Source: Alphaproteobacteria bacterium (GTDB taxonomy: Bacteria; Pseudomonadota; Alphaproteobacteria; UBA7985; JAUIBT01). From it: a DNA stretch of 64,000 bases. A model generated the notes under the pieces. The model was given only the letters and a program-made list of their open reading frames with translations, was not told the DNA's origin and ran no database searches. The first letter of the stretch is position 1. Every line of letters starts with the position of its first letter. A program made the translations under genes and the position numbers. Shown here piece after piece: positions 15,948 to 57,190 of this stretch. The stretch is from assembly GCA_030428255.1 (NCBI GenBank), contig JAUIBT010000019.1:1-64000 (forward strand). Direction: 5' to 3'.

Positions 15948-17045
15948 ATGGATGCGGATTATGTCCTTGTCGGCGGCGGTATCGTCGGCCTCTCGATCGC
16001 TTGGGGGCTTGTAAAGCGCGGCAAGCGGGTAATCGTCCTCGACGGCGAAGACGGTAGCTTTCGCGCCAGCCGAGGAAATTTTGGTCTGGTCTGGGTCCAG
16101 TCAAAGGGCATGAACCAGCCACGCTATGCCCAGTGGTCACAGGAGTCCGCTGCAGCTTGGGGCGACTTTGCTCAGGAGCTGGGCGAGGCGACCGGCCGCG
16201 ATCTGGGTCTGGAGCAAAAAGGCGGCTATGACTTTCATTTCTCCGAGCAGAGCTTAGAAGAGACCGTCGCCAAATACGAAGTTCTAAAGCAGGCGCTTGG
16301 CGGCAATTATCCCTATGAAGTCCTACGCGGGAACGCCTTGCGTAACGAGGAACCCGAGCTTGGCTCAAGCGTTGTAGGGGCCATCCTTCACCACCAGGAC
16401 GGGCACGTAAACCCGCTGCATTTGCTGCAAGCACTGGCGCAGGATCTGCGCCGATTGGGCGGCCAGGTGCTGGTCGGCAAGACTGGGGTTGATGTTAAAA
16501 AATCAGATGTATTCACGGTGCTATGCGACGACGGCACGCGCGTTGAAGCCAGCAAGGTCGTCCTGTCTGCCGGGCTAGGCGCGGCGCAGCTTGGCCCCAA
16601 GATGGGCTTTCTCGCTCCGGTCACTCCGGTGCGCGGACAGAATTTGATTACCGAAAAACTGCCCCGGCTGATCAACCGCCCGTCGCTTTATGCGCGCCAG
16701 GTGAAGGAGGGCGGCATTCAGATCGGCTACAGCACAGAGCTATCGGGATTCGATGACGCGGTGACGGTCGATTCCTTGTCCTCAATTGCGACTAAGGCCA
16801 TTCATGTCTATCCCTGCTTGCAGCATGTCCAAGTGGTGCGCAGCTGGGCGGCGCTGCGAATCATGTCGCCCGATGGCTTGCCCATCTACCAGGAAAGCCC
16901 GCGCATGCCGGGCGCATTTCTGGTGACTTGCCACAGTGGCGTTTCGTTGGCCGCAGCGCATGCGCGGTTTTTGCCGAACTGGCTGGAAGGGCGCGATGAC
17001 GCCCCCGATTTGGAGGTGTTCCGTGAAGACCGCTTCGCCGTTTGA
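15948..17045 (+). CDS. FAD-dependent oxidoreductase, opine-oxidase B / HcnC-like subunit
   Basis: 365 residues from the ATG at 15948; the frame is open further upstream and the ribosome binding site is poor, so the start is moderately sure. The N-terminal FAD-binding GGGIVGLS (9-16) and the DAO fold resemble glycine/D-amino-acid oxidases and the OoxB, HcnC and SoxB beta subunits. It is the first of three overlapping genes (flavoprotein, 2Fe-2S protein, FAD/NAD protein with a BFD domain), the arrangement of octopine/nopaline oxidase and hydrogen cyanide synthase. The likely job is oxidative C-N bond cleavage of an N-substituted amino acid delivered by the upstream TRAP system. Confidence 0.85.
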   Translation: MDADYVLVGGGIVGLSIAWGLVKRGKRVIVLDGEDGSFRASRGNFGLVWVQSKGMNQPRYAQWSQESAAAWGDFAQELGEATGRDLGLEQKGGYDFHFSEQSLEETVAKYEVLKQALGGNYPYEVLRGNALRNEEPELGSSVVGAILHHQDGHVNPLHLLQALAQDLRRLGGQVLVGKTGVDVKKSDVFTVLCDDGTRVEASKVVLSAGLGAAQLGPKMGFLAPVTPVRGQNLITEKLPRLINRPSLYARQVKEGGIQIGYSTELSGFDDAVTVDSLSSIATKAIHVYPCLQHVQVVRSWAALRIMSPDGLPIYQESPRMPGAFLVTCHSGVSLAAAHARFLPNWLEGRDDAPDLEVFREDRFAV

Positions 17046-17334
17046 GTATCTCGCCCAGCCGACAAACTTGGTCGCAGTGCGTTTTGATGGTCAAACCTAC
17101 CAGTTGCCGAAGGGTGAAAACCTGGCCGCAGCGCTGTTGGCCGCTGGTGTGCGCAGCACGCGCGAAAACCCTGGCTCGAACGCGCCCCGGGCGGCGTTCT
17201 GCATGATGGGGGCCTGCTATGAGTGCCGCGTGCGCATCGATGGTGCCAGCGTTCAGGCTTGCATGATCCAGGTGCGTGACGGCCTGGTGGTTGAAAAAAT
17301 GCAGCCAATCGGAGGGCAAAGCTATGAGCGCTAA
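17023..17334 (+). CDS. 2Fe-2S ferredoxin-like subunit of the oxidase trio (HcnA/OoxC-like)
   Basis: 103 residues from a GTG at 17023 that overlaps the preceding gene by 23 bases and has TGGAGG upstream. Four Cys fit a plant-type 2Fe-2S site: C60-x4-C65-x2-C68 with C80 distal. It should transfer electrons between the two flavoproteins. The small size and tight overlap support a stoichiometric complex. Confidence 0.88.
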   Translation: MKTASPFEYLAQPTNLVAVRFDGQTYQLPKGENLAAALLAAGVRSTRENPGSNAPRAAFCMMGACYECRVRIDGASVQACMIQVRDGLVVEKMQPIGGQSYER

Positions 17335-18748
17335 TGATCGGCGGGACTTTGACCTAGCCATCATCGGGGCAGGGCCTGCGGGCATGGCTGCGGCCGCCCA
17401 AGCCGCGAGCGCGGGCCTCTCGGTGCTGCTGCTGGACGAACAGGCGCGCCTTGGTGGGCAAATCTATCGCGACATAGAACGCACCAGCGAACAGCGCGGG
17501 CGCATCCTAGGCAAGGACTATCTTGCTGGGCGGGCCTTGGTCGATGACCTGGTCAAGTCTTCAATCACTTATGTCCCGCAGGCCAGCGTTTGGCAGGCCG
17601 ATCAGGACGGCCACTTGTGCTATACGGTCGAAGGGCTGGCAACGCAGACCAAAGCGCATCGGGTATTGCTTGCAACCGGCGCCCTGGAGCGCCCGGTGCC
17701 TATTCCAGGATGGACCTTGCCAGGGGTCATGATGGCTGGAGCCGGTCAAATCTTACTCAAGCAATCGGGCCTAGTCGCCAAGCGCGCGGTGATCGCTGGC
17801 AGCGGTCCGCTGATCTACCTGATCGCCGCGCAAATGGTCCGTGCTGGCAACCCGCCGCTGGCCTTGATCGAAACCCAAACAGCCGCAGATTTTTGGCAAG
17901 CCCAACACCACCTCGCGGGCGCACTGCGCGGCTGGCGCTATCTGATCAAAGGCCTGGGATTGATTGGCGAGCTGCGTCGCGCGGGCGTCAAGCGGTATCG
18001 GGGAGCGTCGGACTTGCAGGCTGAGGGCCAAGAGCGGGCCGAAGCTTTGCGCTTTTCTCACCGCGGCAAGCAGCAGTGGCTTGCTTGCGAGACGATCTTC
18101 TTGCACATGGGTGTGGTTCCCAACACGCAGCTCAGCCGTGCCATGAATTTGGACCATTACTGGAGCGCCGCTCAGCACTGCTTTCATCCTAAAACCGATG
18201 GCTGGGGCCGCAGTTCTGCGGCTGCGATCTTCATTGCAGGCGATGGCGCTGGGATCGCCGGTGCCAAAGGGGCCGAGCTGGCCGGGCGCATCGCGGCGCT
18301 TAGGATTGCTGCCGATCTTGGACGTTTGGACGAAGCGACTATGGCCCAGAGCGCCACGCCGCTTCACCGTGAACTGGCACGCGAGCGCGCCGCGCGTCCC
18401 TTCTTGGATCGCGCCTATCCGGCGTCTAGCCAAGTGCTTGCTCCCGACGATGCCACCATGGTTTGCCGCTGCGAGGAGGTGAGCGCAGGCGATATTCGTC
18501 GCTATGCCGCCATGGGCTGCGATGGACCCAATCAGGCCAAGGCCTTTGGCCGTGCAGGGATGGGGCCCTGCCAGGGGCGCTATTGCGGGCTCACCGTCTC
18601 GATGCTGTTGGCCAGTGTCAACCAGCGGTCTTTGGACGAGACAGGCTATTTTCGAATCCGCCCGCCAATAAAACCGTTAACCCTGGGGGAAATCGCTCAG
18701 TTGGATGATCCCGATGCAGGTGCAAAAGAGGTGATGGACCTCGGCTGA
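17324..18748 (+). CDS. FAD/NAD-binding oxidoreductase with BFD-type Fe-S domain (OoxA/HcnB-like)
   Basis: 474 residues from the ATG at 17324, overlapping the 2Fe-2S gene by 11 bases; GGAGGG lies 9 bases upstream. The FAD-binding GAGPAG is at 15-20. A second dinucleotide motif (VIAGSGPLIYLIAAQM) lies near 155-170. The C-terminus has a BFD-like 2Fe-2S domain with CRCEEV and, about 35 residues later, GPCQGRYCG. Its architecture matches alpha subunits of opine oxidases and heteromeric amino-acid dehydrogenases. No terminator is visible after it. Confidence 0.88.
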   Translation: MSANDRRDFDLAIIGAGPAGMAAAAQAASAGLSVLLLDEQARLGGQIYRDIERTSEQRGRILGKDYLAGRALVDDLVKSSITYVPQASVWQADQDGHLCYTVEGLATQTKAHRVLLATGALERPVPIPGWTLPGVMMAGAGQILLKQSGLVAKRAVIAGSGPLIYLIAAQMVRAGNPPLALIETQTAADFWQAQHHLAGALRGWRYLIKGLGLIGELRRAGVKRYRGASDLQAEGQERAEALRFSHRGKQQWLACETIFLHMGVVPNTQLSRAMNLDHYWSAAQHCFHPKTDGWGRSSAAAIFIAGDGAGIAGAKGAELAGRIAALRIAADLGRLDEATMAQSATPLHRELARERAARPFLDRAYPASSQVLAPDDATMVCRCEEVSAGDIRRYAAMGCDGPNQAKAFGRAGMGPCQGRYCGLTVSMLLASVNQRSLDETGYFRIRPPIKPLTLGEIAQLDDPDAGAKEVMDLG

Positions 18749-18889
18749 CCGGGAAAAACCGCCAGGCCTAGCCGCTTGCATTGGTCTTGATTTGCTAGGT
18801 TTCTCTTTCCTCAAACCGCTGGGCGAGCTATGGCCTGTCTGGCGGCGCGGGGCGCTGTTGGGATGTTCCTGGCTTTTGGAGAGGCGGCG

Positions 18890-19231
18890 ATGAAACTCGA
18901 TGTTTGGGAATATGTGCGCTTGATGGTGGCGCTTGAGGGCATGCCGCGTTCGCTTCTGTTGGCACGCGAGAAGGATGCCTGGCAGGAACTGGACCAGGAA
19001 CTCTCGCGCTTAGCTGAAGACGACTACACCGCCTATTCTGACATGATGCTCAACGCCACTGCAGACCTGGGCGAGTTGTCACCGGCTGAACGCGGCGAGG
19101 CCAAGGCTGCTTTGAGCAGTGTGATTGACGAGCTTCGTCAGGCCGAGGTCGGAGCGGACACAGAATTGAGGCAGGCCTTGTCTCTCGAGCGCAAAGCGCT
19201 CGCCAAGCGCCTTAAGGCTCTGGCGGCCTAG
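18890..19231 (+). CDS. Small helical protein, unknown function
   Basis: 113 residues from the ATG at 18890, with GGAGAGGCGG upstream. The sequence is rich in Ala, Leu, Glu and Arg and should be almost all helix. The C-terminal half (LRQAEVGADTELRQALSLERKALAKRLKAL) has coiled-coil character. There is no signal peptide and no Cys. Not recognised. It converges on the carbonic anhydrase gene. Confidence 0.65.
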   Translation: MKLDVWEYVRLMVALEGMPRSLLLAREKDAWQELDQELSRLAEDDYTAYSDMMLNATADLGELSPAERGEAKAALSSVIDELRQAEVGADTELRQALSLERKALAKRLKALAA

Positions 19232-19285
19232 CAAACAAGCGCTCCACACGATTTCACCCCTTAGGAGCTTCAAGCAGCACTCGCT

Positions 19286-19972
19286 TTAAGCACGGGTAGT
19301 CGGATAAAGCTCTTCTACCGGTTCAAAATCGCCGCTTTGCTCATCCATGATCCAAAGCTCGCCCTTGGCGATATCGAACCAAGCGCCATGCAATTGCAGG
19401 CGGCCCTTCTCGTGCAGGATCTGAACGCAAGGGAAGGTCTTGAGGTTCTCGATCGAACGACGCACAGAGATGCGCTCGAGCATGGTTTGACGCTCGCCTT
19501 GGGTTAGATGGGCGTACTTGCCCACCTCCTCGGATACCGGCCCCAACATTTCCAGCCACTTGCCGATAAAGTCTCCAGGCGACAGAGGCTCGCTGCTGGG
19601 GTCCAGCGCGGCCTTGATGCCACCGCAGCGCCCATGGCCCAGGACGACAATGTGTTGGACTTTCAAGGCTTGGACGGCAAATTCAAGCGCTGCGGAGGCC
19701 GAGTGATACTCGCCCGTCGGCTTGTAGGGAGGCACCAAGTTGGCGACGTTGCGCGCGACAAACATCTCGCCGGGCGCAGTGCCAAAAATGGTTTCCGGTG
19801 CCGCACGAGAATCGCAACAAGCGATCATCATAACCGCTGGGCTTTGGCCTTCCTTTGCTAGCTGAAGATATTGCTCCCGCGCCGCAGGCATAACATCGCC
19901 GCGGAACCGCGCGTATCCTTCAAGTAAGAAGGCTGGGAAGCCAGCGGGCACATCAGGGCGCTTTTGGGTCAT
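19286..19972 (-). CDS. can: Beta-class carbonic anhydrase
   Basis: 228 residues from the ATG at 19972; an upstream in-frame start exists but adds a tail not usual for the family. Zinc ligands are C53 (in ACCDSR), H113 and C116 (in GHGRCGG). The catalytic Asp/Arg pair is D54-x-R56. It interconverts CO2 and bicarbonate in the cytoplasm, supplying bicarbonate to carboxylases. The gene appears monocistronic. Confidence 0.95.
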   Translation of the reverse strand: MTQKRPDVPAGFPAFLLEGYARFRGDVMPAAREQYLQLAKEGQSPAVMMIACCDSRAAPETIFGTAPGEMFVARNVANLVPPYKPTGEYHSASAALEFAVQALKVQHIVVLGHGRCGGIKAALDPSSEPLSPGDFIGKWLEMLGPVSEEVGKYAHLTQGERQTMLERISVRRSIENLKTFPCVQILHEKGRLQLHGAWFDIAKGELWIMDEQSGDFEPVEELYPTTRA

Positions 19973-20168
19973 GGTCGTTAATCCAAGGTCAAGATGTTGC
20001 AATCGAAAATCGCGGCGGCCGGGCCAAGCCCAGCAAGCGATGCTTGCCTAGCCTTCAGCTAGCCTAAAGACAAGTCCTGTTGCAAGCAAGCCAGCCGGTC
20101 GCGGGCTTGACTTCGGTGCGGGCTGCCGTCATGTCAAGGCCTTGGCAAAGCTTGGAGCAGGAACGAAC

Positions 20169-20759
20169 ATGACCGATGGTTTGCAAGACATGCGCACGCG
20201 CCAGGCGCTGCCCGAAGCCTTGCGGGTGCTCGCGGCGCACTATCCGCGAGACGCCTGGGACAAGCAGCAACCCTTGGGGCAACTGACCCGGTTTTGGCTC
20301 GATCGCCACCTCATGTTTCGCAAGCTCCTTGGCCAGCTTGGCAGCGAGGCACAGGCTTTGGCCGATGACACGGCCCAAGCTGCGGCCTTTCGTCAGCGAT
20401 TGCCGCGCATGGGCGGGTTCCTGGTGCAAAATCTTCATGGCCACCACCAAGTCGAAGATCACCACTATTTCCCGCTGCTCAAGGGCTACGACGAGCGCTT
20501 GGTACGCGGCTTTGAACTGCTGGACCTGGATCATCACGCTCTGGACGAGGCCCTGGCGGGTTTCGTGTCGTCCGCTCAGGCATTGCTCGGCGATCTGCAA
20601 ACGCAAGCCGAGGCAGGTCGTGCTGAAGCTTTGCCCACCAGTTTGGCCCACTATCAAGCCACAGTCGCCAGTCTGCAAACTTGGATCGAGCGGCACTTGT
20701 TCGACGAAGAAGAATTGGTGGTGCCCATTTTGCTGCGATACGGCGAGCCCGCCATGTGA
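20169..20759 (+). CDS. Hemerythrin HHE-domain protein
   Basis: 196 residues from the ATG at 20169. His and Glu residues sit in the four-helix pattern of HHE domains: W-x2-RH near the first helix, HGHHQVEDHHYFPLL in the second, DLDHHALDEAL in the third, and WIERHLFDEEELVVP in the last. Such domains bind a non-heme diiron centre and act in oxygen or NO sensing, iron handling or repair. The role here is undetermined. It ends 10 bases before the converging nudC gene. Confidence 0.85.
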   Translation: MTDGLQDMRTRQALPEALRVLAAHYPRDAWDKQQPLGQLTRFWLDRHLMFRKLLGQLGSEAQALADDTAQAAAFRQRLPRMGGFLVQNLHGHHQVEDHHYFPLLKGYDERLVRGFELLDLDHHALDEALAGFVSSAQALLGDLQTQAEAGRAEALPTSLAHYQATVASLQTWIERHLFDEEELVVPILLRYGEPAM

Positions 20760-50461: not shown

Positions 50462-51316
50462 TCAGTCCAGTGAAAAGATAACGTTGGTCTGACCGGTGCC
50501 TGAGCTTGGGAAGTAAGGGGTCACAACCTCGCCACGGCCCTTGTATTGATCCCAGCCCAGAGCTGCGAACAGCATAACCGTGTCGTGCATGTCGCCTTCG
50601 CCGTCACAATAGTGCGCGTAGTCGGGCAGCATCTTCAAGAAGCGCTCGGTCTCCCCGTTCTGCCACAACTCGAGCACTCGTTCGTCAACCACGCGATTGA
50701 ATTCGCTGGATATAGTGAAGGTGCCGTTGTTCTCGGCATAGATGTCGTTTGGCCAGATCTTATGCGACAGGGAGCCAGAAGCAATCAGTGCGACTTTGCT
50801 GTCGCTCTCATCTATCGCCTTGCGAATGGCTTCGCCTAACTTGCGGGTCGATGCGTGGCTGTGGACTGTGCACCAAGCGGCGACCGACACCACTTTCAGC
50901 GCTGCGTCTTCGTTCATGTAGCGCATGGGAACCAAAGTCCCGTACTCTAACTCCAAGTGCTCGACCTGATGAGACAAGGCGTAGACGCCGTCTTCTTGAG
51001 CCTTAGCTGCGATCAGATTGCCCAGTTCAGGATTGCCCCGGTAGTCATAGGGCAGGTCTTGAATAAACTGCGGAAATTCGTTGCTGGCGTAGTTGCCCTT
51101 GAAGTGCGGCTTAGCGTTGATGTGGTAGGCGGCGTTCACCAGCCAGTGGGTGTCGAGCACCAGGAAGGTATCGGCTCCGGCCGCGCGAGCCCGGCGCCCG
51201 ACTTCGCGGTGGCCATCGATAGCGGCCTGGCGGCAGCCCTTCAAGGGACCATCCATCTCGGACAATAGCATGGTGGGAACGTGCGTTGTTTTCGCGGCTA
51301 AGACCAATTCGCCCAT
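50462..51316 (-). CDS. hpaD: Class III extradiol dioxygenase, homoprotocatechuate 2,3-dioxygenase-like
   Basis: 284 residues from the ATG at 51316 (AGGAG upstream). The metal ligands H12 (KTTHVPTM) and H57 (VLDTHWLVN) are present. Close agreement with HpaD over GCRQAAIDGH, NAAYHIN, LEYGTLVPMRYM, IASGSLSHK and GEGDMHDTVMLFAALGWD supports the meta cleavage of 3,4-dihydroxyphenylacetate. The other hpa genes are not in the window, so a related catechol is possible. The gene is divergent from a LysR regulator. Confidence 0.88.
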   Translation of the reverse strand: MGELVLAAKTTHVPTMLLSEMDGPLKGCRQAAIDGHREVGRRARAAGADTFLVLDTHWLVNAAYHINAKPHFKGNYASNEFPQFIQDLPYDYRGNPELGNLIAAKAQEDGVYALSHQVEHLELEYGTLVPMRYMNEDAALKVVSVAAWCTVHSHASTRKLGEAIRKAIDESDSKVALIASGSLSHKIWPNDIYAENNGTFTISSEFNRVVDERVLELWQNGETERFLKMLPDYAHYCDGEGDMHDTVMLFAALGWDQYKGRGEVVTPYFPSSGTGQTNVIFSLD

Positions 51317-51379
51317 ATCACAAACTCCTGTGTTTTGCGGCAAGCTCTCATGGTCTGGCGCATGCGGCAATCCTATGAT

Positions 51380-51398
51380 ATCCATAGTTGCTATGGAT
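51380..51398. promoter_or_regulatory. Perfect palindromic operator candidate between hpaD and lysR
   Basis: ATCCATAG-TTG-CTATGGAT (8-base arms, 3-base centre) spans the likely LysR start codon and lies 64 bases from the hpaD start. It is a good candidate for the LysR binding site with autoregulation. Confidence 0.55.
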
Positions 51399-52325
51399 AA
51401 ATTCGATGTATGGAAGCTTGAACTTCACGCTCTGCGCGTGCTGGTGATGATCCACGAGCTGGGGACCTTCACCGCGGTCGCGGAACGCTTAGACCTCAAT
51501 CAGTCCACCGTGTCCTATACGGTTGACCGCTTGCGGCAGATCTTTGGGGACGAGCTGTTTGTGCGCCAGGGGCGGGGCATCGCACCGACTGCGCGCTGCC
51601 AGGAGCTGGTGAGTCAAGCGCGCAGTCTGCTGCGCCAATACGAGGGCATGACCAAACCGTCCCAGTTCGATCCAGCGAGCTTTGACGGCCGTTTTGTCGT
51701 CTCTTGCAATCCCTACGAGGAGTCTGTGGTACTGCCAGCGCTTTGGGCTTTGCTGCGCCGGACGGCCCCGCGTGCTCAACTTTCCGTGGTGCGCACGCGC
51801 AGCTTGGGCGGACAGCAGGTGCTGGATGGCCAAGCCGACGTGCTGATCTCGCCCCAAGAGCTGGGAGACGCGGGCTTGCAAAGGCGCTGGCTCTTCGAAG
51901 ATCGCTATGTCTGCTTCTATTTGGGAGAACAGTCGCCTGGGAGCCTGTCTTGGAAGCGCTATCAACGCGCCAACCACATTCGCCTGCGCTATGACGAGAG
52001 CTGGTTTCCGCTCTACCGCGATATGCTACGGCAAAAGGGCATGGAGTTGGAAACGAGCCTGGAACTGCCGGGGCTCTCGAGTTTGCCTGCGATCTTGGCC
52101 CTGTGTGCCCGCGAACAAGACCGAGGCATTGAGACGATCTTTACTGCGCCAGAGCGCTTGGAGGGCAGCTTGATGGGGGCCAGGCCACTTGGGCTCCACA
52201 AAGCCCCTGCGCCCTTTGATTGCAGGTTCGATGTCTATCTCTATTGGCCGAGCCGTGAGAAAACTGCCGCGCGAAGCCAGTGGTTGCGCGATCTCATCGT
52301 CACCTCCGCGCGCAACTTGGTCTAG
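51393..52325 (+). CDS. LysR-family regulator next to hpaD
   Basis: 310 residues from the ATG at 51393; an ATG at 51375 is an alternative, and neither has a strong ribosome binding site. The HTH is at about 10-55 (LHALRVLVMIHELGTFTAVAERLDLNQSTVSYTVDRLRQIFGDELFVR). The effector domain follows (about 85-295). It likely controls the divergent dioxygenase in response to an aromatic metabolite. Confidence 0.9.
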   Translation: MDKFDVWKLELHALRVLVMIHELGTFTAVAERLDLNQSTVSYTVDRLRQIFGDELFVRQGRGIAPTARCQELVSQARSLLRQYEGMTKPSQFDPASFDGRFVVSCNPYEESVVLPALWALLRRTAPRAQLSVVRTRSLGGQQVLDGQADVLISPQELGDAGLQRRWLFEDRYVCFYLGEQSPGSLSWKRYQRANHIRLRYDESWFPLYRDMLRQKGMELETSLELPGLSSLPAILALCAREQDRGIETIFTAPERLEGSLMGARPLGLHKAPAPFDCRFDVYLYWPSREKTAARSQWLRDLIVTSARNLV

Positions 52326-52862
52326 CGCGCTTGAACTCGCCAGCGGGCGGTGGGCAGATTTGCCTGCGCGGGCGTATCGCAAGAAGGCTGCAAAAACAGC
52401 GATCTAACCTGTGACTGGTGCAGGGCAAAAGCTCAAACCAGGGCTCGAGTCGCAATTGTGGCTGCATTTTGACTTACTCACTGGCAAAAGGCTCTCCAGC
52501 AGGCTTGCGAACTGCGAAAATGGGAAACTTGGTCTGAAAAGTATCCATCATGCAATTTAAGGTAGAAACCTCTTATTTATTTTTGTATGTATGAGACCTA
52601 GTATAGGCCCGAAGAGGCTTCTCGCTCAAAAAATTTATTAAGACATTTGGCATTCTATGGTCCTGCGACCGCTGACATATTTTGAGACCCGTGTCTCTTT
52701 GCTGGGCTTAGCACGGCAGGAGGGCTGGGAATTGACCCGCAAGCCGCACTGCTCAGTCGGCCTGGTCGGCAAGCGGCGCTTGGCTGTTGGGCGCGCGCAG
52801 ACTCATTGCGCGATGCAAATGAGGAAAATCAGCGAAAAATGCGAATATGGAGGGCTGAACGC
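52326..52862. other. Intergenic region upstream of the large secreted-protein operon
   Basis: About 540 bases with no convincing gene. A short ORF at 52657-52866 has no family signal. The middle (52555-52650) is AT-rich and includes a dyad GAAG-AGG-CTTC near 52612. It probably holds the promoter and control region for the two following genes. Confidence 0.4.
52576..52604 (+). promoter_or_regulatory. Weak sigma70-like promoter candidate
   Basis: TTTATT (52576-52581), a 17-base spacer and TAGTAT (52599-52604). The -35 match is poor; the position in the AT-rich part of the gap is the main support. Confidence 0.3.
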
Positions 52863-55800
52863 GTGACGACCTTCCGATTCGTGGCGATTCTTGGTAAGTT
52901 TGCCACATATTCAACGCAATTCCTTTTCCCCCTAGCCAAAACTTTTCGCCATTTCTGGCAAGGGGCGGCGCAGCCGATTTTGTTGCAACAATCCGCCCCT
53001 TACGCCGATTTTGCGGCCCGTCGGCCTTCCCCTACATCCTGGTTGCTGAAATCTTCGAGTACAGCGTTGTTGCTGGTGCTTGCGCTAGGCGGTGCTGCTG
53101 CAAACGCGCAAGACGCGGGAAGCTCAAGCGGTGCCGAAGTAGCCGCGTCAAGCACCGACGACCCAGTCGCTCAAGTGCTGCGCCAGCGTCTGCAAGCCTG
53201 GTCGCAAAAGAATTCGAGCGATGCCAAGGCGGTGTTTTCGGGGGCGGACCAAGATCAAGGGCGCGCAGCCTCTCAATCCTTGAGCCAGGCACAAACCCAA
53301 AATGAGAGCGCTCAGGCGGGCCCAGCACCACTGCAAAATGAGGATGGTAGTGCGTCCGATGAGGACGAATTGGGCCAAGTCCAGCTCAGCGCACCAGCCG
53401 GCAATGACGCCCCGGCCCCTGAACCAGCTGACGAGGCGCAAGGTGCCAACCAGCAAGATGAAGTCGTTGCTGCACCCAACGCTGTTGAAGCGCAATCGCT
53501 TACGGGTGATCGCGAGCTGGACGCTATGCTGAGCGACGCGCAGAAACTGCTTTTGGTGCAAGCGATCCAAACCCTGCAGGTCCTGCAAAAAGAAGACGAG
53601 CAAGCACGGGCGGTGGCGGCAACTCTGACTGACCGCCAGAAAACAGCCTTGCTTGGGCTTTTGCGCACCTTGGAGGAGGTGCAGGCCGACCAGGCCGAAG
53701 GGCAACGCGGCTTTAGTCCCGAGCAGCGCGAGGCCATAGTCGAGGTTCTGAGCACGCTGGAGTCCGAGCAACAGGCCATCGAACGCGCGCGCGCGCAGCA
53801 ACAGCGCGCCGCTGACCAGCAAGCCCGCGCGCCGCAAAGGCAGGCACAACCAGGGCAGGCACAACCAGGAACAACGCCCCGCCAGGGCACGGGCCAAACT
53901 GCCCAGAATTCCGCTTCAAGTGGGCTCGCACAGGGGCTCTTGACCCCTGAGCAAGAAGCAGCCTTGACTGCAGGGCTCGCCAAGCTGCGTGCGGCAGAGG
54001 CGGTTCAGGCCCAAGGCGGCGATGCGCAGGCCGCTCTGGATATGAGCGCTGAAGAACGTCAGGCGTTGCTCGCCGTTATTCAGATCATCCAACGCCTACA
54101 AAATGAGCTTGGAGCCAACGCCAACGTCGCCGAGCTTTCGGGTGCACAGAAGCAAGAGCTGGTCGCGGCTGTCACACGCCTGCAAACCGCGCAACAGCGG
54201 CGTGCCGCCGGGCTTACCTCGGCCCTTGCTGCGGCGGGCGATCAAGCAACAAGCGCGCCTGCACCGGGTGGCACCCAGACGGCGGCTCGTGGCCCGCTCA
54301 ACGGCGGCCTGAATGTCATCGCCGATGATCGCCGAGAGGTCAACGCAGATCTGGCGACCGCCAACCACTTGGCAGGCAGCGTCACCGCTGGGCGCAATTC
54401 TGTGATCTTATCGACGATTCTGCGGTCCTCCGGCCAGCTTGAAACCGGTTTGACCTATCGCTCTGGCACCATAAGCGCACCCAACTGGGAACTTGACTAC
54501 GGCGTGAATGTCGTCGGGACTTTGCGCAATATCGCTGAGCAAATCGCACCGCTCGACAGCTATAAAATCGCGCCTGATATCACTGTTGTACGTCGTCTGA
54601 CCGACCGGATCAATTTGAAGGTGACGGGGCAAGCCGAGTTTGTGCCCAACGCAGGCGCAATGCTGGCGACCGCTGGCTTGATCTACAGCCAAGGCATATA
54701 TGAGGCTGTCGGCAACGTGTCGGCCAAGTATGAGTATCTGGCCAATCCCGATCTACCGGCCAGCAATCCCTTGGCAGAAATTGATGCAACCACCTTTGGC
54801 CTCGATCTGGGTGTCGCAGCAACCGGTTATGAAATGGGACCAACGGAAACCGACGCCACTGCCAAGTTGACACTGTCTCAGGTCCTTGGCCAAGATCCGA
54901 CCGTGACCGCCAGCGCCAAGGTTGTCACTAAGTTGACCAGCGATTTGAGTTTGACCGAACGCATTGCCAAAGCGCGCGCCGATTATATTGAGCAGGCAGG
55001 GGCGAGCTTGGCGAGCGCAGCCTTCGGTCCGCGCCGTCAGCCAAACAAGGCCGCCCTTTTCTTCGACGATATTTTTTCAGCAGAGGGCCAAAGCCAGGCC
55101 CGTCAGGTGTCCAACCCCGCTGCACCCGTTTGGCCGAGCTTTGACGATATCTTCGCACCAGAAGGTGCCCAACACGCAAAGGCAGCAGGCCCAAGTGTGG
55201 ATGCGATCGCGGCCTTGGTGCCGGTTGACCCCGGCGCCTTGCCCTATGACCTGCGCGAGGCCACCGGCCGCAACTTCATCAGCCAGCTCACGCGTTTGGG
55301 TTATTCTGAGCAGAAGTCGGTTGAAGTCAGTTTGGATCGTAGCGCGAACGGTTTGGTGACGGGCCGCCTGAAAGCAAATGCCCCTCACATTTTGAGCCCA
55401 AGCCTGGTCGGCGAAGCGCGTTTGGCCTACGCGGGTCAATTTGTGCCGACGACGGTCTTTGGCACTGCAGATCCCATGTTCTTGCAAGAGCTGAACGCCC
55501 GGCTGATGGCCGCTTGGCAGGCGGGCGAGCGCACGACTTTGGCAGGGCGGGTCTCCGCCTCGCTGGACACGGATTTTGCGGTCAGTTCGACCGGGCTCAT
55601 GCTGGAAGCGACCCGAACCCTGGCACCCTACGCCGACACTTCGCTCAAGTTCACGAATACTAATACCTATCAGCAGGGCATCTACCAAGAAAGCCTCAAC
55701 GAGTTGCGCGCCAGCCTGCGCTATCGCGACGATCGCTATGGTGAGTTTTCGGGCAGCGTAGGACGACAGTTCGACCAAGATTTTCACCCTGGCGCCTACG

Positions 55801-55955
55801 TGGCAGCGGCTGCTTATGCCAAGGGCGTTGCCAATATTCTATCAAGCGGGCGCGATGCCCTGTTCGAGGCGGGCCTCGAGCTGCGCTATGACCCACAAAC
55901 TGATTCCGAAGCGGAGGTTGGCGCCTTCGTCAAGGCCACAATTGAGCTAAACTGA
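52863..55955 (+). CDS. Large secreted envelope protein: six helical repeats plus beta-rich barrel-like half
   Basis: 1030 residues from a GTG at 52863 with GGAGGG 8 bases upstream. A 60-residue amphipathic/basic extension precedes the hydrophobic signal (about 66-82), with cleavage after AANA. Then come an acidic/Gln-rich region, six ~30-residue helical repeats starting near 223, 255, 284, 360, 394 and 425 (pattern L-S/T-x-x-Q-K/R-x-x-L-L-x-x-I-x-x-L-Q), and a QAQPGQAQPG linker around 325-340. From about 460 on the sequence alternates like beta-strands. A motif FDDIFSAEG / FDDIFAPEG occurs at 734 and 760. It ends in IELN, not an aromatic residue. I do not recognise the family. The stop overlaps the frame of the next gene. 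Confidence 0.8.
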   Translation: MTTFRFVAILGKFATYSTQFLFPLAKTFRHFWQGAAQPILLQQSAPYADFAARRPSPTSWLLKSSSTALLLVLALGGAAANAQDAGSSSGAEVAASSTDDPVAQVLRQRLQAWSQKNSSDAKAVFSGADQDQGRAASQSLSQAQTQNESAQAGPAPLQNEDGSASDEDELGQVQLSAPAGNDAPAPEPADEAQGANQQDEVVAAPNAVEAQSLTGDRELDAMLSDAQKLLLVQAIQTLQVLQKEDEQARAVAATLTDRQKTALLGLLRTLEEVQADQAEGQRGFSPEQREAIVEVLSTLESEQQAIERARAQQQRAADQQARAPQRQAQPGQAQPGTTPRQGTGQTAQNSASSGLAQGLLTPEQEAALTAGLAKLRAAEAVQAQGGDAQAALDMSAEERQALLAVIQIIQRLQNELGANANVAELSGAQKQELVAAVTRLQTAQQRRAAGLTSALAAAGDQATSAPAPGGTQTAARGPLNGGLNVIADDRREVNADLATANHLAGSVTAGRNSVILSTILRSSGQLETGLTYRSGTISAPNWELDYGVNVVGTLRNIAEQIAPLDSYKIAPDITVVRRLTDRINLKVTGQAEFVPNAGAMLATAGLIYSQGIYEAVGNVSAKYEYLANPDLPASNPLAEIDATTFGLDLGVAATGYEMGPTETDATAKLTLSQVLGQDPTVTASAKVVTKLTSDLSLTERIAKARADYIEQAGASLASAAFGPRRQPNKAALFFDDIFSAEGQSQARQVSNPAAPVWPSFDDIFAPEGAQHAKAAGPSVDAIAALVPVDPGALPYDLREATGRNFISQLTRLGYSEQKSVEVSLDRSANGLVTGRLKANAPHILSPSLVGEARLAYAGQFVPTTVFGTADPMFLQELNARLMAAWQAGERTTLAGRVSASLDTDFAVSSTGLMLEATRTLAPYADTSLKFTNTNTYQQGIYQESLNELRASLRYRDDRYGEFSGSVGRQFDQDFHPGAYVAAAAYAKGVANILSSGRDALFEAGLELRYDPQTDSEAEVGAFVKATIELN

Positions 55956-56014
55956 TGCGTTATATTAAGTGTCGTCGCGATCCGTCGCGCCCGAATGCAA
56001 GAAGGAAAAGCCAA

Positions 56015-57190
56015 ATGTTCAACTTTGGTTTGTATAACAAAAGTGCCGTCCCAGACGCGCGAAAAGTCAGCGGCACGTTGCCGTATGGCTTGGCTGGCCC
56101 AAGCCCGGCTGCGAAAAGGGGAACACCCAGACTAGGGCTCCTCGCTGGTCTTTGGATGGCAATGTTGGCCGCGCTGCTGCCAGGTCTTGGTCAAGCCCAG
56201 GTGATCTTGCAGCTTGATTTGGCGTTGTGGACCCGCTTCCAGGGGACGGCGGTGGCTTTGTTGCAGGACGTACAACCGAGCAATGAAGGCTTGCTGCGCC
56301 AGAACAAGGCGAACGTGAATAACTACAACGCCAGTGATCAGATCGGGGCCGGATCCTGGTTGCGCCTGGCGACAATTGCGCGTGACCAAGACGCAATGCA
56401 AAAGGGCTTGCGCGCGATCGAGGTGACCTTAGCGGGCAACCTGCCCGACGGCAGCTTTGTGCATGTTGAACGTTTGGACGACTCACGAGTGCGCAGGGTC
56501 ACTGGCCTTCGCGGCAAGTATTTGGATGCAAGTTTGCTGGGCGATTTCTGCCTCGGATTGTTGGTCGCTGACGCGGGACAGCCCATTTCTGCGGAGTATG
56601 GGCGGCGGAATTCTCCGCCTTTAGCGCGCGCCTTGCGCTCGGTGAAGTTTCAGGCTCAGGCTTTGCTTCAGTTCGCCGCTTCACGCCCCGATCAGCTCAT
56701 GACGATCGCAGGCATGTTCCATTCTTGTGGGCTGTTGCTTAAAGACGCCAAGGCTCAGGCAATGGCGATTACGTTTGCTCAGCAGGCGACGCGCAACACC
56801 ACCTATGCCGGGATTTGGACCTTTGGCGGCAAGACCGACACCAGCCTAGCTGCAACCACCAACAAGGCCGCTTTGGATCTGTTATCGCTGAAGTACGACG
56901 ACACCTCCAAGCAACGGATCGAGGAAATCATAGGTATGACATCGAGCTGGCTGCTTGAGCGCATTGATGCCGACGGCGAGTTGAACTCGAAGGGGAATGC
57001 ATACAGCTGCGTCACCAAGCGGGCGGTCGACAACCAACTGTCCGGCATCAATCTGCGCGACCTGTTGTTCTCATTATTCCGCGGCGGCTTCTATTTCGAC
57101 CGGGGCGACATGCTCGGCGCGGCGGAAAAGGTCGTGGGCCGCTTGAACAGCAACAATATCCCAGACGGTTTCTGTTTCTTTAGGGCCTAG
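56015..57190 (+). CDS. Secreted helical protein, possible alpha/alpha-toroid fold, unknown function
   Basis: 391 residues from the ATG at 56015 (AAGGAAAAG upstream); an ATG at 55955, overlapping the previous stop, would add 20 residues. About 40 residues precede a hydrophobic segment (GLLAGLWMAMLAALL), with cleavage likely after LGQA. The mature part is mostly helical with recurring pairs such as GSWLRLATIARDQDAMQKGLRAIEVTLAGNLPDGSFV and IIGMTSSWLLERIDADGELNSKG. This looks like helical-hairpin toroids of polysaccharide lyases or hydrolases, but no catalytic signature could be confirmed. Three Cys are present in the mature part. It is in an apparent operon with the repeat protein. Confidence 0.75.
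   Translation: MFNFGLYNKSAVPDARKVSGTLPYGLAGPSPAAKRGTPRLGLLAGLWMAMLAALLPGLGQAQVILQLDLALWTRFQGTAVALLQDVQPSNEGLLRQNKANVNNYNASDQIGAGSWLRLATIARDQDAMQKGLRAIEVTLAGNLPDGSFVHVERLDDSRVRRVTGLRGKYLDASLLGDFCLGLLVADAGQPISAEYGRRNSPPLARALRSVKFQAQALLQFAASRPDQLMTIAGMFHSCGLLLKDAKAQAMAITFAQQATRNTTYAGIWTFGGKTDTSLAATTNKAALDLLSLKYDDTSKQRIEEIIGMTSSWLLERIDADGELNSKGNAYSCVTKRAVDNQLSGINLRDLLFSLFRGGFYFDRGDMLGAAEKVVGRLNSNNIPDGFCFFRA

Follow-up and report, generated by a model that had tools for sequence, protein, structure and literature searches.

P1 and P2, two adjacent genes, quite possibly form a two-gene, genus-restricted operon of the cell envelope that is gated in translation by its own leader RNA, with P1 in the outer membrane and P2 as its soluble partner. 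Within the genomes searched the pair is restricted to one little-known genus of Alphaproteobacteria. The outer-membrane placement of P1, a complex of P1 with P2 and the translational gating are what we infer. What the initial annotation had observed on this DNA was largely real, and its interpretation was partly supported.

The gene pair and its distribution

The window, the whole stretch of 64,000 nucleotides that was analyzed, belongs to an alphaproteobacterial genome of 3.5 Mb that is 99% complete. The P1 frame comprises 1030 aa from a GTG at 52863 and the P2 frame starts with an ATG at 55955 (Table 1). The overlapping arrangement of the two genes was recovered: one base is shared (TGATG), and this overlap is also kept in a second species of the genus. 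An alternative start of P1, TTG 53043, is located immediately 5' of the signal peptide.

Table 1. Features of the P1-P2 locus (positions in the window).
Feature	Position	Strand	Basis
Putative structured leader RNA (5' UTR and first ~50 codons of the P1 frame)	52803..53012	+	nucleotide conservation, consensus fold
Shine-Dalgarno GGAGGG, conserved, 8 bases 5' of GTG 52863	52849..52854	+	alignment, fold
P1, predicted secreted envelope protein, GTG start and conserved Shine-Dalgarno	52863..55955	+	frame and orthologue alignment
Predicted anti-Shine-Dalgarno CCTTCC; hairpin loop encloses the GTG start	52870..52875	+	pairing probability, invariant helix
Predicted stem-loop GTGGCGA / TYGCCAC, variable 12-base loop	52881..52906	+	one G-C to G-U change, loop diverged
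Predicted stem GGGCGG / CCGCCC and inner stem GCAG / YTGC	52961..53000	+	one compensatory, two G-C/G-U changes
P1 signal peptide LLKSSSTALLLVLALGGAAANAQ	53043..53111	+	hydropathy maximum, read from sequence
Helical repeats 1-3 (starts at residues 223, 255, 284)	53529..53802	+	consensus matches, repeat alignment
Gln/Ala-rich linker between the triplets	53803..53939	+	repeat spacing; variable, gapped in orthologue alignment
Helical repeats 4-6 (starts at residues 360, 394, 425)	53940..54210	+	consensus matches, repeat alignment
First beta-rich segment; seven-strand meander in low-confidence model	54294..54962	+	sequence, AlphaFold
Non-beta insert with doubled DDIF[SA][AP]EG (DNA matches start at 55065 and 55143)	54963..55304	+	motif search
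Second beta-rich segment, C-terminus ...FVKATIELN	55305..55952	+	orthologue alignment, model
P2, predicted secreted protein, 411 aa	55955..57190	+	frame and orthologue alignment

Upstream the pair is flanked by a LysR regulator and a 3,4-dihydroxyphenylacetate dioxygenase (HpaD), downstream by a GMC oxidoreductase on the opposite strand. Neither a polysaccharide synthase nor another functional partner gene was found beside P1-P2. The single cellulose-synthase-family match of the genome is located on another contig, next to a DUF3131 gene. The intergenic region 5' of P1, for which an AT-rich control region of more than 500 bases had been proposed, indeed comprises 537 bases but is only mildly AT-rich (53% GC over 52326-52800), with a core of about 120 bases (52540-52660) at 35% GC.

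Two further observations concern other parts of the window. At 50462-52325 the HpaD-type extradiol dioxygenase gene is divergent from the LysR gene. The start listed for LysR overlaps the dioxygenase gene, and its true start probably lies downstream. The AT skew reaches 0.36 between 42001 and 44000, a stretch with minus-strand MFS and TauE genes, and stays within about 0.15 in all other parts of the window.

In the second species, represented by a metagenome-assembled alphaproteobacterial genome (record JAUIDR010000025), P1 and P2 keep both their order and their overlap. A third carrier of the genus, JAUIHE010000076, has P2 at a contig edge, the contig beginning inside the gene. The co-occurrence of both genes is thus borne out, as they are adjacent and overlapping in 2 of 2 complete loci. 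Since the genes 3' of the pair differ between the species, P1 and P2 represent the conserved unit. No relatives of P1 were found in 11 genomes of the order, and none of P1 or P2 in 337 genomes of the class, barring a few near-threshold matches to P1 fragments. Relatives of P2 were absent from 399 genomes of the phylum and from the plasmids searched. The Pfam, NCBIfam and PDB sequences gave no match to either protein except a sub-threshold match of P1 to PF10082. Both proteins had been described as unknown initially, and no full-length match to BcsC/PgaA/AlgE-type families was found.

The leader RNA of P1

The leader of 210 bases was about 72% identical between the two species without a single gap, and on both flanks the identity dropped to 20-40%. 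Substitutions were evenly spread over the three codon positions (16/14/12). Here, pS (0.246) was close to pN (0.231), whereas pS amounted to 0.62-0.77 in other parts of P1. Within the first 45 codons, 93% of the identical residues were encoded by identical codons; elsewhere this share averaged 41% and did not exceed 68%. Equal pS and pN together with the frozen codons indicate that the constraint on the leader acts on nucleotides; the frame is open in both species, so that a coding role is possible too. Of the long extension that had been described before the signal peptide, the open frame was confirmed, but it overlaps a leader that appears to evolve as RNA.

The consensus fold of the leader reached a z-score of -6.1 and none of 500 shuffles keeping the conserved blocks was as stable, with -2.4 for the antisense strand; a first score of -6.8 had been obtained by plain column shuffling. 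All 31 predicted pairs are standard in both genomes and include one compensatory double change and three G-C/G-U changes, in a comparison of two sequences only, with the structure chosen on the same alignment and with minimal covariation. Each leader alone was of ordinary stability (z -0.7). The Shine-Dalgarno and anti-Shine-Dalgarno sequences pair with a probability of 0.94-0.96 in both genomes and their helix is invariant. The GGGCGG / CCGCCC stem is weak in the second species taken alone (pair probability about 0.1). According to these predictions the leader mRNA appears to fold so as to hide its own ribosome-binding site. Rfam covariance models (e.g. ROSE, riboswitches) did not match the leader, the best hit having an E-value of 3.2 on the other strand. 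Additionally, no further copies were found in 13 genomes by DNA search or in 115 by model search.

Architecture of P1 and P2

P1 is 56% identical to its orthologue of the second species over its length. The six helical repeats of about 30 residues described initially were clearly recovered. A loosened repeat consensus gave 6 matches in P1 where 0.0005 are expected from shuffled sequence, and the repeat cores shared 31% pairwise identity versus 11% for random windows. According to their spacing (32, 29, 76, 34 and 31 residues) the repeats are arranged as two triplets. The Gln-rich linker is present as well, but it is located between repeats 3 and 4 and not after all six. The doubled FDDIF motif was found at residues 734-738 with the second copy about 26 residues further, and the second species carries FDDIF and GDDIF. 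A search for DDIF..EG at the DNA level gave exactly two matches per genome in these two species and no further ones among 11 genomes of the order.

Residues 480-1030 of P1 are beta-rich and split by a non-beta insert which holds both motif copies. An internal duplication of the two beta segments was not significant. A C-terminal aromatic residue is usual for outer-membrane barrels; P1 ends without one. The AlphaFold model of P1 had a pLDDT of 28.9, the alignment being too shallow. Foldseek searches with this model returned mostly outer-membrane barrels, including FapF and intimin-type barrels, all with E-values above 0.1 and covering only part of the model. The PF10082 (BBP2_2) match comprised a C-terminal stretch of 51 residues (E 0.0084-0.035); it scored 15.5 bits against a curated cut-off of 23.7 and was not found with the orthologue. 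A hydrophobic strand-alternation score was useless as a barrel test: barrels scored no higher than HpaD or an MFS transporter, and P1 was not separated from cytoplasmic proteins. As described initially the C-terminal half is beta-rich, but a barrel is not visible in the sequence; an outer-membrane beta-barrel is plausible, not proven.

The mature part of P2, from about residue 81, was 90% identical between the species. Its dN was 0.074 with dS saturated, compared to a dN of 0.38 for P1. Four cysteines are invariant (199, 258, 352 and 407) and DG loops are present. The AlphaFold model was mostly helical with short hairpins, but its pLDDT was 34.9, again from too shallow an alignment, so that the structural check proposed for both proteins gave no usable model (pLDDT 35 and 29 for P2 and P1). 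Foldseek found nothing better than E 0.4 with this low-confidence P2 model. The suggestion that P2 is a polysaccharide-acting toroid was not supported by a sixfold periodicity of 45-65 residues (p 0.48) or by profile similarity to the two candidate families, PL5 and DUF3131.

PL5 alginate lyase (PF05426) was suggested by eye from NN...DGS...R and rejected after negative hhalign and HMM tests (hhalign probability below 1%). P2 has NNY where the NNH of PL5 would fall by eye, in an alignment which is itself unsupported. DUF3131 (PF11329) was considered because of a BLAST match and the DUF3131/GT2 locus of the genome. The match to the DUF3131 protein of the genome spans 40 residues without gaps (15/40, pairwise E 0.002). 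The family was ruled out by its profile, to which P2 fits no better than shuffled P2 sequences do, at a rank of about 125 among shuffles and decoys; hhalign gave a probability of 0.6%.

The DUF3131 gene lies beside a cellulose-synthase-like GT2 gene on another contig of the same genome (L038:7030-10277; G000:C7 about 17029-20276). DUF3131 was present in 4 of 142 genomes of the class, yet in both well-covered species of this genus. In public plasmids DUF3131 genes adjoin genes for cellulose-synthase-like transferases, OpgC and GH16. Near the DUF3131/GT2 genes an autotransporter of 848 aa is encoded (L038:3660-6206; G000:C7), with a passenger matching DUF285 at E 3e-73; Pfam describes DUF285 as a Mycoplasma family. 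Another alphaproteobacterium carries a PL5 alginate-lyase-family gene convergent to a BBP2_2 barrel porin gene (L031:3-2436), a lyase-barrel arrangement of the kind imagined in the initial annotation.

Proposed mechanism, alternatives and known systems

In the proposed mechanism, the most economical reading of the locus, the leader hairpin would hold the Shine-Dalgarno sequence and the GTG start of P1, and P1 would be translated once temperature, a ligand, a protein or an RNA opens this hairpin. P2 would be made along with P1 by coupling across the one-base overlap. P1, a secreted protein, would probably be placed in the outer membrane via its beta-rich C-terminal half, and its two repeat triplets would serve as a periplasmic spacer or docking arm. 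P2 would be the strongly constrained, probably disulfide-bearing soluble partner which does the chemistry or binding. That the substrate is an extracellular polymer would be a guess. It would likewise be a guess that P1 and P2 export or trim a polymer, made because the architecture compares with PgaA (PMC9384988) and FapF (PMC5557850).

A more far-reaching version seems rather doubtful to us. Here, two new protein families would form a genus-specific envelope machine. P1 would be a barrel with a periplasmic arm of two three-helix-repeat units and would dock through its duplicated DDIF motif, P2 would be the catalytic partner, ultra-conserved in sequence, and an undescribed translational RNA switch would control both by hiding ribosome-binding site and start codon.

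If the reading of a gated envelope pair is right, one compact unit would combine a new class of leader RNA with two envelope protein families not described before. For a locus that is otherwise genus-restricted, the near-frozen sequence of P2 points to a specific function of the lineage, and the RNA gate would point to tight regulation of this function. Even if the reading of the proteins were wrong, the apparent N-terminal extension would still be partly a conserved regulatory RNA.

A system for polymer export or trimming, in which P1 would be a PgaA/BcsC-type exporter of periplasmic helical arm and barrel and P2 a lyase or hydrolase of alpha/alpha-toroid fold, is unlikely. The order of helical arm and beta half in P1 resembles PgaA and BcsC (PMC9384988, PMC5638805), the predicted helices, short hairpins and DG loops of P2 would fit a toroid, and the genome does encode one cellulose-synthase-family glycosyltransferase next to the DUF3131 gene whose product matches P2. 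However, sequence matches in Pfam, NCBIfam and PDB are missing, the DUF3131 and PL5 comparisons stayed at the level of shuffles or below 1% and the periodicity was at chance, and a synthase does not adjoin the pair. The outer-membrane role proposed initially, in which a polymer is exported, anchored or trimmed, received no positive support. Still less probable is a role of P1 as a surface protein resembling autotransporters or FapF, with the repeats displayed or serving as a gate, P2 as passenger, subunit or chaperone and no polysaccharide involved. The order of a helical, Q/A-rich N-terminal part and a beta C-terminal part and the FapF and intimin-type barrels among the non-significant fold matches point in this direction, but neither the Autotransporter nor any other barrel family exceeded its cut-off and the fold matches cover the model in part only.

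For the leader, an ordinary coding extension without regulatory role, its nucleotides being conserved by a promoter, DNA-binding sites or recent local exchange, appears improbable. The frame is open in both species even across an in-frame insertion of about 75 bases, the Shine-Dalgarno sequence and the GTG are conserved at the same spacing, and the pN of the extension (0.23) is not above the P1 average (0.30). Against this, synonymous sites are as constrained as non-synonymous ones in the leader only, the sense strand yields a stronger consensus fold than its antisense counterpart, and the conservation ends abruptly on both sides.

Compared to known systems, P1-P2 shares with PgaA, BcsC and AlgK-AlgE the secretion, an N-terminal arm of helical repeats, a C-terminal beta-rich half and an adjoining gene for a soluble partner. 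Unlike these, P1 has no match to TPR, BcsC_C, Alginate_exp or any other family, its repeats of about 30 residues follow another consensus and no synthase or modification genes adjoin the pair. Models of export-porin barrels or TPR did not match P1 even at E 10, although HMMER filters drop most matches above 0.1. The putative beta-barrel porin family PF10082 resembles P1 in the 51-residue stretch alone, below the cut-off and not in the orthologue. The amyloid exporter FapF has a coiled coil besides its barrel (PMC5557850, PMC6173795). By analogy only, FapF is similar to P1 in the helical region before a barrel and in an operon with secreted partners; sequence similarity to P1 was not detected and no Fap-like gene set adjoins the pair. 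PL5 alginate lyases show the motif order NN...D...DGS.....R, like P2 by eye, but the profile tests were negative and, by eye, a tyrosine of P2 falls at the catalytic histidine of NNH. Of DUF3131, known beside cellulose-synthase-like transferases and OpgC, one member matches P2 over 40 residues and the family profile does not.

Cis-regulatory RNAs that sequester the Shine-Dalgarno sequence include RNA thermometers and translational riboswitches. The leader of P1 differs from these in having no Rfam match and in being known from two sequences. It resembles them in a predicted hairpin which pairs the Shine-Dalgarno sequence and keeps the start codon in its loop, and the conserved pairing with the anti-Shine-Dalgarno sequence that marks such RNAs is predicted at about 0.95 in both genomes.
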